DNA of 11,140 nt. Origin: Nitrospirae bacterium CG2_30_53_67 (GTDB lineage: Bacteria; CG2-30-53-67). The stretch covers positions 1 through 11,140 of the forward strand of contig MNYV01000041.1 of the NCBI GenBank assembly GCA_001873285.1, given 5' to 3'. Under the pieces are notes generated by a model. That model had not been told where the DNA came from, did no database searches, and saw only the letters and a program-made list of their open reading frames with translations. Of the stretch, positions 6,588 through 10,300 are shown one piece after another; the first letter of the stretch is position 1, and each line of letters opens with the position of its first letter. A program made the translations under genes and the position numbers.

Positions 6588-7598
6588 TCAGGCAAAGAGC
6601 CTCCTGATCAAGGACGTCCTGTTTTTCACACCCACCTTGTCGAAGATATGCTTTAAATGCACCTTGACCGTATGTTCGCTGATGAACATCTGTTCGCCTA
6701 TCTCCATGTTGCTCAGTCCCTGGAAGATCAGGTTGACCAGTTCCTTCTCTCTGCGGGAGAGTCCGTACCGGATGGCGAACGTATCGGTGTCGAAGGGGAG
6801 TTCCTTTGGAGGCACATGGGTCATCACCAGGATGTAATCGTTCCCCAGAGGATCCTTTTCGTCTTTTTCCAGAATCATCATCAGGACATTCAGGACCTGT
6901 CCGTCCGGCAAGGTCCATTCGGTCTCTGCCCGGTTGGATCGTTTTCTCCGCCGGGCGGTCAGGGATTTTGCATAGAGACTCCGGAGCAGCTTGACCACGG
7001 AGGGGTGAAGGCCGTAAGGCGGTTTGGTGCGGGTCCTTGTTCCTGAACTGAATTTGGAAAAAATAGCCCTCGATCCTGGATTCATGTAGACCGGTGTTCC
7101 CATGGAATCATAGAGGATCATGGCGATCGGAGCCTCGTTGCAGGCCTGCTCAAAGATCCGTCTTTCTTCGTTCATCTGCCTGAAGGTGCTGTCAAAGTTG
7201 ATCTTGTCCCGCACAGAGGCCCGGATCCATGCCAGGAGCTCCGCCTCCTGAATCGGTTTGGTCAGATACTTATCTGCGCCTTCATTGAGACCCGATACGA
7301 TGTCTTCCGTGGTTGTCCGCTCCGCGGTAAAAAGGATCACGGGGATATGGGCCGTAGCCGGGTTTTTCTTGATCCTCTTGCAGAGTTCCATACCATCCAA
7401 TTCGGGCATGTTGACATCCAGGATCACCAGGTCGATCTTGCTCTTTTTCAGGATCTTGCTGGTCTCCTTTGGGTTCTGTGTGGCATGAACGTGATAGCCG
7501 TTCAGTTCAAGGATGGTTTTCAATAAGAGAAGATTGTCTTGAATGTCGTCTACGATCAGAATGTCGTTCATCATGTTGTTCAATGCGGTTGTTTTCAT
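6588..7598 (-). CDS. REC-PAS-LuxR-type DNA-binding response regulator
   Basis: This is a transcription factor that is probably activated by phosphorylation. Starting at the ATG at 7598 it has 336 residues. The receiver domain spans about 12-130: acidic pair D17/D18, phospho-acceptor D61 in LVILDVNMPELDG, the T91 switch and K114 in DKYLTKP. A PAS-like domain spans about 150-260 (IFEQACNEAPIAMILYD ... ILVMTHVP). The C-terminal GerE/LuxR helix-turn-helix spans about 277-336 (LSRREKELVNLIFQGLSNME, then ISEHTVKVHLKHIFDKVGV). The start is supported by AAGGGA 6 nt upstream, inside the end of the preceding kinase-like gene, whose stop lies 2 nt away. The two are surely one transcriptional unit and probably partners. 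A PAS domain between REC and HTH suggests a second input such as a ligand or redox cofactor; no cofactor-binding residue can be named. The target genes are unknown. Confidence 0.9.
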   Translation of the reverse strand: MKTTALNNMMNDILIVDDIQDNLLLLKTILELNGYHVHATQNPKETSKILKKSKIDLVILDVNMPELDGMELCKRIKKNPATAHIPVILFTAERTTTEDIVSGLNEGADKYLTKPIQEAELLAWIRASVRDKINFDSTFRQMNEERRIFEQACNEAPIAMILYDSMGTPVYMNPGSRAIFSKFSSGTRTRTKPPYGLHPSVVKLLRSLYAKSLTARRRKRSNRAETEWTLPDGQVLNVLMMILEKDEKDPLGNDYILVMTHVPPKELPFDTDTFAIRYGLSRREKELVNLIFQGLSNMEIGEQMFISEHTVKVHLKHIFDKVGVKNRTSLIRRLFA

Positions 7599-7600
7599 AG

Positions 7601-8386
7601 CTATCCCTTGCATAAAGTTAAATGAATCTCCAAACGCCCTTTTGTCCTGGTGACGGACATTTCCCCTCCCATCATGGCCATATAGAACCGTGACAAGAGC
7701 ATACCAAATCGAATCCTTCCTGGAATATTGCTTTTCACGGTCCATGTGAAAAGCTCTTCCGTTTCCATGATACCCGATCCGGAAAAAACCAGCATGATGC
7801 CGAGGGCGCCCCGGGAACGGACGGATTTCGCCGCCGGGAGCTCTTTCACGTTGACATGAATCTTCCGGGGCTTGAACAGAAAAAGCACACCCTCAAATAT
7901 ATTTTCCAAAATAAGCTGCAACTTTTGCTCGTCCCCCAGTATCCGGTAAGAAATTTTGGACGGAGTGTAAAACAGGTTGATCCCTTTCCCCTGAACCTTC
8001 ATGGAACGGAGGATCTTGTCCAGTGTGGAATTCAAAAAAGGGTGGACGGCGATCAAGTCTTGATGAAATTCGGTATTCTGTCCGACGGCCCGGCAATATT
8101 CCACCAGATGATCCAGGATGGTCAGGAGATCCGTACTCCTTCTCAGAATGATGCCCACCTCTTTCTTCTGTTCAGCGTTCAGATTCCCGATGCGTTCACT
8201 CAGGAGGATCTCGGAAAAGCCGATGACGCTGTTCATAGGGGACCGAAGGTCATGGGACAGATCTGAGATGACGTCATGGATATTCGGAAGAAATTTGAAC
8301 CGTGAAGGAGACGGTGACCCCATCTTTTTATGTGCGTTCATTAATTTCGGAACTTTTTCTAATGTTGTTTTGGATAATGCGTTCAT
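7601..8386 (-). CDS. Histidine-kinase-like protein with degenerate ATPase domain (possible phosphotransferase)
   Basis: A 261-aa cytoplasmic protein with no membrane segment. The HisKA dimerisation/phospho-acceptor domain (about 35-105) is well kept: H45 in DLSHDLRSPMNSVIGFSEIL. The following HATPase-like part (about 115-258) has the fold outline (GDEQKLQLILENIF; MMGGEMSV) but the ATP motifs are lost. In the N box the usual NA is G166-V167. In G1 the Asp of DxGxG is F201 (VFSGSGI). In G2 the usual GTGLG is R224-I-R226-F-G228. It therefore probably cannot phosphorylate itself. Known proteins of this build, ChpT and Spo0B, transfer phosphate between receivers; a phosphatase or scaffold role is also possible. 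The start at 8386 fits the promoter upstream, but ATG at 8341 (MNAHKK) is an alternative; neither has a strong ribosome site. It is coupled to the LuxR-type regulator downstream. Confidence 0.85.
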   Translation of the reverse strand: MNALSKTTLEKVPKLMNAHKKMGSPSPSRFKFLPNIHDVISDLSHDLRSPMNSVIGFSEILLSERIGNLNAEQKKEVGIILRRSTDLLTILDHLVEYCRAVGQNTEFHQDLIAVHPFLNSTLDKILRSMKVQGKGINLFYTPSKISYRILGDEQKLQLILENIFEGVLFLFKPRKIHVNVKELPAAKSVRSRGALGIMLVFSGSGIMETEELFTWTVKSNIPGRIRFGMLLSRFYMAMMGGEMSVTRTKGRLEIHLTLCKG

Positions 8387-8711: not shown

Positions 8712-9301
8712 TTAATTCTCTCGGTGATCCAAGACTCCTCTTATTCTCCGGGCCAGCACAGACGGTGTGAAAGGCTTGGACAGGAAGTGAACACCCTCCT
8801 GGTCCAGGGGGATCCGTTCGTCCGCATAGCCGGACATGAAAAGAATCTTCATGCCGGGGCGGGTCTTCCTGATCTGCCGGGCCATATCCGGGCCGCTCTG
8901 TTCCGGCAGGACCACGTCGGTCAAAAGCAGGTCAATGTCTCCCACATGCTCCTGCATCCGGCGCAAGGCCTCTTCCCCGGTTCCGGCGGATAAAACCTGA
9001 TATCCCAGATCCGATAAAACCTGAACAGCCAGATCAAGAATGACCGCTTCGTCTTCAACAATGAGGATCGTCTCGCTGCCTCGGGGGATCGCATCTTTTA
9101 GGGAGGGGAGGGGATGCGCCTTCTCATCCTCTGTTTCCGAAATTGCGGGAAAATAAACTTTGAACGTTGTCCCTTGTCCCGGTTCGCTGTAGACATAGAT
9201 ATGGCCGCCCAACTGTTTTACAATGCCATAGACCGTGGAGAGCCCCAGGCCCGTGCCTTCTTTCTTGGTTGTGTAGAAAGGCTCGAAGATGTTTGCTCCG
9301 G
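8712..9301 (-). pseudogene. C-terminal remnant of hybrid histidine kinase: HATPase G2 end plus receiver domain
   Basis: This frame continues the hybrid kinase that starts at 10300. It reads [20 protein letters not shown], then [20 protein letters not shown], the G2/ATP-lid end of a HATPase, followed by FKVYFP, a linker and a complete receiver domain: acidic residues in [15 protein letters not shown], the acceptor Asp in [20 protein letters not shown], and Lys in FLSKPF. The stop is TAA at 8714-8712. No plausible start precedes it; TTG at 9212 would begin inside the ATP lid. I therefore read it as the second half of a broken gene, not an independent one. The receiver itself looks intact and could still work if expressed by re-initiation or frameshifting. 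Confidence 0.75.
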
Positions 9302-10300
9302 GGAGAAGGTGTGCAGAAGAAGGTCCGCGTAGCCGATGATGGCCGTGAGAAGATTGTTGAAATCGTGGGCGATGCCGCCTGCAAACCGTCCGATGGCCTC
9401 CATCTTCTGTGCCTGAAGAAACTGGGCCTCAAGTTTTTTTCGCTCGGTTACGTCACGGGCCACAGCGACGATGTAGTCCCGGTCTGGGAGGGAGACATAG
9501 CGAGCGTTGATCTCCACAGGCGTCACGTCTCCATTCTTGCAGCGGTGCTCCCGCTCAGCCAGGTCCTGGCCGATCTTCTTGAGTTCGGCGGCGCGCAGTC
9601 CCCAGGTATCGAGGGTGGCGATCCGGCTGTCGATTTCCCAGACGTGGAGGGCGAGCATCTCTTCCCGGGTGTAACCCAAACTACGGCAGGCCTGCTTGTT
9701 CACGTCCAGGATGCGCCCTGTATCGGGTTCGACGACAAAGATGGCGTCGTTGGAGTGATCGAGCAATGTCCGGAAGAGGAGGAGTTCCTTTTTGGCATGC
9801 TCCTGTTCGACATAGGCCGACTCGAGTTGGAGCATCTTCTGCTCGAGCTTCATGACCAGCCGTTCGTTGTAGAGCTTGAGGATCTGTTTCTCTCCCTCGA
9901 CTCCGGCATTATTTTTCCGGATCTTTCCTGCTTCGGCTTCCTGGATGACCTTCCGGATGATCTTCAGGAACTCTTCGGGCTCCGTGGGTTTCCGGATGAA
10001 CCCGTCGGCGCCGAGCTTATAGGCCAGTTCCTCGTCTCTGGCCTCGGTATAGGTCGCGGTGTAGAAGACAAAGTGGACCCTCTGCAGGGCCGGGTCGGCC
10101 TTGACTTGGCGGCAGAATTCAAAGCCGTCCATGACCGGCATGAGGATGTCGGAAATGATGAGTCCGGGCCGCTCTTTTCGGGCGATCTTCAGGGCCTTTT
10201 CCCCATTGGCGGCCGCTGTCACCTGGTGGCCCTCCTTCATCAAGAGTGTCTCCAGCAGGTATTGCGTCTCTTTATTGTCTTCTACAATCAGAATTTTCAT
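9218..10300 (-). CDS. REC-PAS-HisKA hybrid sensor kinase, 5' part of a gene broken by deletion and frameshift
   Basis: A cytoplasmic sensor kinase without membrane segments. The receiver domain is at 1-120 (E7/D8, acceptor D51 in [14 protein letters not shown]104 in FIRKP). A coiled-coil linker at about 133-175 is rich in E, K, Q and L. A PAS domain at about 176-288 includes [19 protein letters not shown] and ends with the PAC-like [13 protein letters not shown]. The HisKA H box [20 protein letters not shown] has H312. After about residue 334 (near 9300) the frame departs from kinase sequence ([17 protein letters not shown]) and stops at 9218, while the proper continuation is in another frame (8712-9301). 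H312 and the G2 motif are only about 37 residues apart instead of roughly 170, so about 130 residues with the N and G1 boxes are missing. The ATG overlaps the stop of the preceding receiver gene (ATGA). Confidence 0.8.

Follow-up and report, generated by a model that had tools for sequence, protein, structure and literature searches.

The pseudo-kinase PhyT, whose gene lies at the phyR locus, relays phosphate by way of its own histidine, taking it from the single-domain receiver SdrG and delivering it to PhyR (PMC5898713). In ChpT, an extended helix replaces the ATP lid (PMC3433190). Spo0B of the Bacilli is a dimeric histidine transferase that is thought to derive from a histidine kinase, and loss of the ATP-binding domain has been proposed for it (PMC12826061). 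RetS inhibits GacS by forming a heterodimer with it and siphoning phosphate (PMC12189002). Here we analyze a stretch of 11,140 nucleotides (hereafter the window) that encodes a small kinase-like protein with a degenerate ATP site, directly upstream of a LuxR-type response regulator. In this little-studied lineage, a histidine kinase appears once again, and independently, to have been converted into a signaling protein that is not a kinase.

The pseudo-kinase and its partner regulator

Both genes lie on the minus strand, with the regulator downstream and 2 nt between the pseudo-kinase stop and the regulator start; their coordinates, open frames, and this gap, as given by an earlier sequence-only reading of the window, were all reproduced. 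Promoter and terminator scans gave nothing above chance. The features are as follows.

7601..8386 (-), pseudo-histidine-kinase gene, 261 aa, frame open throughout
8084..8308 (-), DHp helical hairpin, residues 27-101 (AF2 helices and HisKA 38-97)
8252..8254 (-), His45, phospho-acceptor, aligned with the phospho-acceptor His of 56 kinase homologs
7604..8059 (-), degenerate CA (Bergerat-type) domain, residues 110-261 (AF2, Foldseek, VIA-align, GacS/RetS profile match)
7889..7891 (-), position of the N-box Asn, now Gly166 (alignment)
7784..7786 (-), position of the G1 Asp, now Phe201 (alignment)
7700..7723 (-), former G2 box, residues 222-229, P-G-R-I-R-F-G-M (alignment)
6588..7598 (-), regulator gene, REC-(PAS-like)-LuxR, 336 aa from an MKTT start, open throughout
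7224..7562 (-), REC domain of the regulator (Pfam Response_reg PF00072, E 3.4e-30)
6870..7139 (-), PAS-like middle domain of the regulator (hhalign, 92% probability against a PAS profile)
6603..6761 (-), LuxR/GerE DNA-binding domain of the regulator (Pfam GerE PF00196, E 3.6e-18)

Pfam recognizes HisKA (PF00512) at residues 38-97 of the window pseudo-kinase (E 8.8e-11) and in 6/6 members of its family, and HATPase_c (PF02518) is absent from the matches at E<=1 in all six. No sensor or transmembrane segment is evident. Motif columns were read from an alignment in which the window protein was set against 56 kinase homologs, drawn from other bacteria and from archaea. The assignment of His45 holds there; within the H box, H45-D46-x-R48-S49-P50, every position but 47 is invariant in the six orthologs. 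All 56 kinase homologs have D in the G1 column, where all six pseudo-kinases have F. At the N box, the Asn found in 55 of the 56 homologs has given way to G, G, V, V, E, and E, and the two G2 glycines (present in 52/56 and 55/56 homologs, respectively) are both Arg or Lys throughout the family. In the window protein GTGLG has become R-I-R-F-G (residues 224-228), and the family possesses its own conserved motif, PG[RK]x[RK]F, where G2 stood. The degradation of the ATP site at N box, G1, and G2 that had been read from the window alone is thus upheld, and a further change that was missed at the time is a shortened ATP lid, with 25 residues between G1 and G2 in 6/6 pseudo-kinases versus 28-32 in the homologs. 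Set beside what defines an active HisKA kinase, the protein has the phospho-acceptor His and lacks the HATPase_c motifs (N-box Asn, G1 Asp, G2 glycines), and it is predicted to be unable to bind or use ATP. It is a pseudo-histidine kinase, with a kinase fold, kinase functions lost (ATP binding presumably among them), and continued conservation.

A profile built from the six orthologs aligns over residues 41-251 with the kinase cores of GacS (E 6.5e-18) and RetS (1.4e-15), and since the alignment spans the whole kinase core, the protein ends in a CA domain that has diverged, not in some unrelated domain. The AF2 model, computed from a 57-row alignment (pLDDT 86.7, pTM 0.80), has helices 27-62 and 71-101 forming the DHp hairpin, mostly at pLDDT >=90, followed by a CA-type sandwich; this fold is partly imposed, as the remaining rows of the alignment come from true kinases. 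In the model, the helix that follows the former G2 box starts at residue 223, within what used to be the glycine loop; the extended helix of ChpT (PMC3433190) is comparable, but this is a predicted detail not to be pressed. The top Foldseek match to the model is the kinase region of RetS (E 3e-14), VIA-align Z scores against cytoplasmic regions of histidine kinases are 19-21 (ZraS 20.8, RetS 19.5), and DivL is also among the matches. ChpT is not among the fold-search matches listed, which carries no weight either way. The protein presumably dimerizes.

With a REC domain and a GerE/LuxR helix-turn-helix, the regulator is of the NarL/FixJ type. Of its earlier description as REC-PAS-LuxR, the two ends are borne out by Pfam and the middle is weaker, resting on the hhalign match: the window regulator has no curated Pfam PAS match, and one ortholog has PAS_8 at E=0.18. 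The regulator orthologs are 74-92% identical, and in their alignment the acidic pair D17/D18, the phospho-acceptor D61, and T91 are invariant, so the REC domain should still accept phosphate. Its conserved Lys, K114 (7257-7259(-)), is Lys in genus g1 and Arg in the g2 and g3 orthologs, a replacement that is frequent in pseudo-receivers (PMC12632262). An AF2 model of the regulator made without an alignment has a mean pLDDT of 46.5 and is usable for REC only.

Distribution, selection, and origin

Our sample of the phylum comprises eight genomes, all drafts, of which six belong to one taxonomic family (three genera) and two to a sister family. A full-length pseudo-kinase with the same motif losses is present in 6/6 genomes of the first and absent from 2/2 of the second, and a search of 386 genomes gave matches in those six only (E<=1e-27). 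A scan of genome contigs gave other kinases and no member of the pseudo-kinase family. Small Caulobacterales kinases (L043, L045, L059, and others) that had been taken to lack G1 and G2 were set aside: their QNA, DxGxG, and EGAGLGL motifs are largely intact, and the search pattern was too strict.

The regulator has the same distribution, and the two genes are adjacent and in the same order in all six genomes, which provides the conserved synteny that the sequence-only reading had named as a check. In one genome (G002) the regulator is split over two contig ends. The junction is a 4-nt ATGA overlap in G002-G005 and a 2-nt gap in G000, the window's genome, and G001. By names read from the sequences, mtnA, pheT, and pheS flank the pair on one side in most genomes; on the other side, a HAD hydrolase and a radical-SAM-like gene are found in G001, G002, and G004, and not in the window.

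Within genera, the pseudo-kinase evolves at a dN/dS of 0.20-0.22, with 0.19-0.30 for the CA domain, 0.09-0.16 for the DHp, and 0.03-0.05 for the regulator (Nei-Gojobori, within-genus pairs; dS is near 1, so the values are rough). The six pseudo-kinases are a single clade in a maximum-likelihood tree, supported at 100/100; a stem of 2.99 changes per column leads to it, and the branching inside it follows the genera, as in the genome taxonomy. The single clade, the long stem, the genus-wise branching, and the low dN/dS together fit one old change of function that was followed by rapid divergence and then by constraint and vertical descent; the loss of the ATP motifs is an old, selected change and not recent decay. 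This agrees with the earlier suggestion that the pattern reflects selection for another function. It had also been held that homologs with intact ATP motifs would point to a recently decayed kinase, and none of the five orthologs examined has them.

Other aberrant kinases were met along the way. A second pseudo-kinase in the phylum, of ~320-340 aa (L126 1267-2289(+) in G005 and L132 1189-2148(-) in G003), has a hydrophobic N-terminal stretch, keeps HDLR[ST]P, has lost the N-box Asn, G1, and part of G2, and forms a separate clade from the window pseudo-kinase in the tree. In G001, L136 1087-2247(+) encodes a REC domain and a kinase-like core with N box, G1, and G2 all lost; its phospho-acceptor His is Gln (SQDLESP), so it cannot carry phosphate on the usual His. 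A membrane kinase in the window's genome, L002 1039-1758(+) (G000:C75; C75:29935-30651), is truncated directly after the DHp. In its G001 ortholog, L122 (388 aa; 74% identity across 216 aa), the CA domain is complete, so the truncation reflects either an assembly fault or a loss that happened recently in the window's genome.

Possible roles of the pseudo-kinase

The explanation we place in front, and to which we give roughly an even chance, is that the pseudo-kinase works on the adjacent regulator as a dimeric histidine phosphotransferase of the DHp type, where phosphotransfer, its direction, and its donor are all presumed. The protein would be soluble and dimerize through its DHp, and its Bergerat-type domain is predicted no longer to bind or use ATP. 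His45 would take a phosphoryl group from an upstream receiver (the REC of a hybrid kinase or a single-domain receiver), and the next acceptor would be Asp61 in the REC-(PAS-like)-LuxR regulator translated together with the pseudo-kinase; the CA domain, trimmed and basic, would serve as a docking surface. What puts this reading ahead is a combination: the His is invariant and its DHp kept, the nucleotide site is lost, a regulator is paired with the gene, and the genome has six hybrid kinases with HATPase and REC in one open frame, many single-domain receivers, and no stand-alone HPt protein. Each of the two Hpt matches in the window's genome shares its frame with a kinase ATPase domain, and one of these frames was read as CheA. 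The retained His itself argues for phosphotransfer, as its mutation in HisKA kinases abolishes phosphotransfer and spares the phosphatase reaction (PMC7005713).

The sequence-only reading had proposed a relay from hybrid kinase to transferase to regulator. That proposal is partly supported: the pairing with the regulator stands (6/6), and the hybrid-kinase donor finds no support here. The neighboring hybrid kinase (window 8712-10300(-), REC-PAS-HisKA ... HATPase end-REC) carries an internal deletion and a frameshift: the break falls between '[25 protein letters not shown]' and '[18 protein letters not shown]', joining the DHp (HDFNN) to the end of the CA domain in another frame, with ~150 residues and the frame lost. 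This is either a decayed gene with a real deletion or a collapsed assembly. The hybrid kinase is also not at the corresponding place in the relatives' loci, and we rejected it as the phosphodonor. Elsewhere in the same six genomes, an intact soluble kinase of ~300 aa lies beside a REC-PAS-kinase.

L031 2462-4910 (G003:C55) (-), soluble kinase and REC-PAS-kinase; likewise G002:C158, G004:C29, and G005:C31; in G000 and G001 divided between contigs

Among paralogs of the regulator's REC, that of this REC-PAS-kinase ranks with the closest, which makes it a candidate donor.

Several points count against a phosphotransferase. No kinase is conserved beside the pair, and no phosphodonor was found. A relay is not required by hybrid kinases in a genome that lacks a free HPt, which is a common situation. 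The D46..S49 pattern of the H box resembles the acid..Thr pair of HisKA phosphatases, and the change of the REC Lys to Arg in the g2 and g3 regulators also speaks against phosphotransfer. A Bergerat domain has been kept, though a pure transferase such as Spo0B manages without an ATP-binding one.

The main rival is a dedicated phosphatase or sequestering partner, in which the DHp would bind the REC domain and, ATP-free, strip off phosphate placed by another kinase or hide the regulator; we consider this unlikely on balance, and yet a serious candidate. Strict pairing and co-translation with the regulator are as such a role would have them, the invariant acidic H+1 and Ser H+4 recall the acidic residue and polar Thr used by HisKA phosphatases, and PhyT likewise holds PhyR in a complex (PMC5898713). 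However, His45 is invariant, though HisKA phosphatase activity does not strictly need the His, and ADP and the ATP lid stimulate the phosphatase reaction (PMC7005713), whereas the pseudo-kinase has lost its nucleotide motifs and has a shortened lid. A RetS- or DivL-like partner, which would adjust the activity of another kinase and would itself read a receiver or pair with one, the regulator gene being just a neighbor from the same circuit, seems to us improbable. The conserved partner gene encodes a regulator and not a kinase, and a bare DHp-CA unit is unlike the multidomain sensors RetS and DivL; the standing of RetS as the best Foldseek match and among the best profile matches, with DivL also matched, could be accounted for by a shared atypical lid alone.

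It is very improbable that the protein is an active kinase with an unusual ATP site. The fold is kept, and so is D152, in the 'GDEQKL' stretch, across 6/6 pseudo-kinases and 52/56 homologs, but the N-box Asn, the G1 Asp, and both G2 glycines are replaced in all six, the glycines by Arg or Lys. A decaying or non-functional gene is hardly credible; the same genome does have other truncated kinases (C75:29935-30651 and window 9218-10300), but six open frames, a dN/dS of ~0.2 that includes the CA domain, and one old origin refute decay at the level of the family. Given the one-step origin, the orthologs, and a partner gene next door, the question of how a kinase becomes a phosphotransferase, the role that we favor here, is testable with two small proteins.

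Comparison with described systems

RetS and DivL have atypical kinase cores and are top structural matches, but they are multidomain sensors that act on other kinases, and RetS keeps the N-box Asn and the G1 Asp in the profile alignment, both of which the window pseudo-kinase has lost. The Caulobacter proteins HmrB and HmrX were considered as precedents and rejected, HmrX being CheA-P1-like and HmrB a bare helical hairpin, neither of them a DHp-CA protein.

The nearest functional precedent is PhyT (formerly PhyP) of Sphingomonas melonis (PMC5898713), which shares with the window protein a gene at the locus of the regulator, a degenerate ATPase domain, and a conserved DHp His. Unlike the window pseudo-kinase, which has no evident membrane segment, PhyT is membrane-anchored; its DHp is of the HRxxN type (PMC5898713), whereas that of the window family is HisKA-type, HDLRSP; and its partner PhyR is not LuxR-type, whereas the partner here is a LuxR-type DNA-binding regulator. 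In anatomy, a DHp with a Bergerat domain predicted not to bind ATP, the protein fits the ChpT type: like ChpT of Caulobacter crescentus (PMC3433190), it is soluble and has an altered lid and a single His. The ChpT model (HPTransfase, PF10090) is not among the Pfam matches at E<=1 in any of the six pseudo-kinases, and while ChpT acts in the CckA-ChpT-CtrA relay, the presumed target here is the next gene and the DHp is recognizably HisKA. Unlike Spo0B, the window pseudo-kinase keeps the CA fold under selection, and the Spo0B models (SPOB_a / SPOB_ab) gave no Pfam match at E<=1.

The earlier description of the pair as a new module was therefore too strong, as ChpT, Spo0B, and especially PhyT are precedents, though the protein falls in none of those families. 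We tentatively suggest, at clearly less than even chances, that these proteins are a class of DHp phosphotransferase that evolved independently and is specific to the lineage, recognizable by the G1 Asp-to-Phe change and by the basic PG[RK]x[RK]F motif in place of the G2 box. The class would be dedicated to one LuxR-type regulator and would act as a phosphorelay hub in a genome without a stand-alone HPt. By analogy, the pseudo-kinase most likely works like ChpT, Spo0B, or PhyT while belonging to none of their families.
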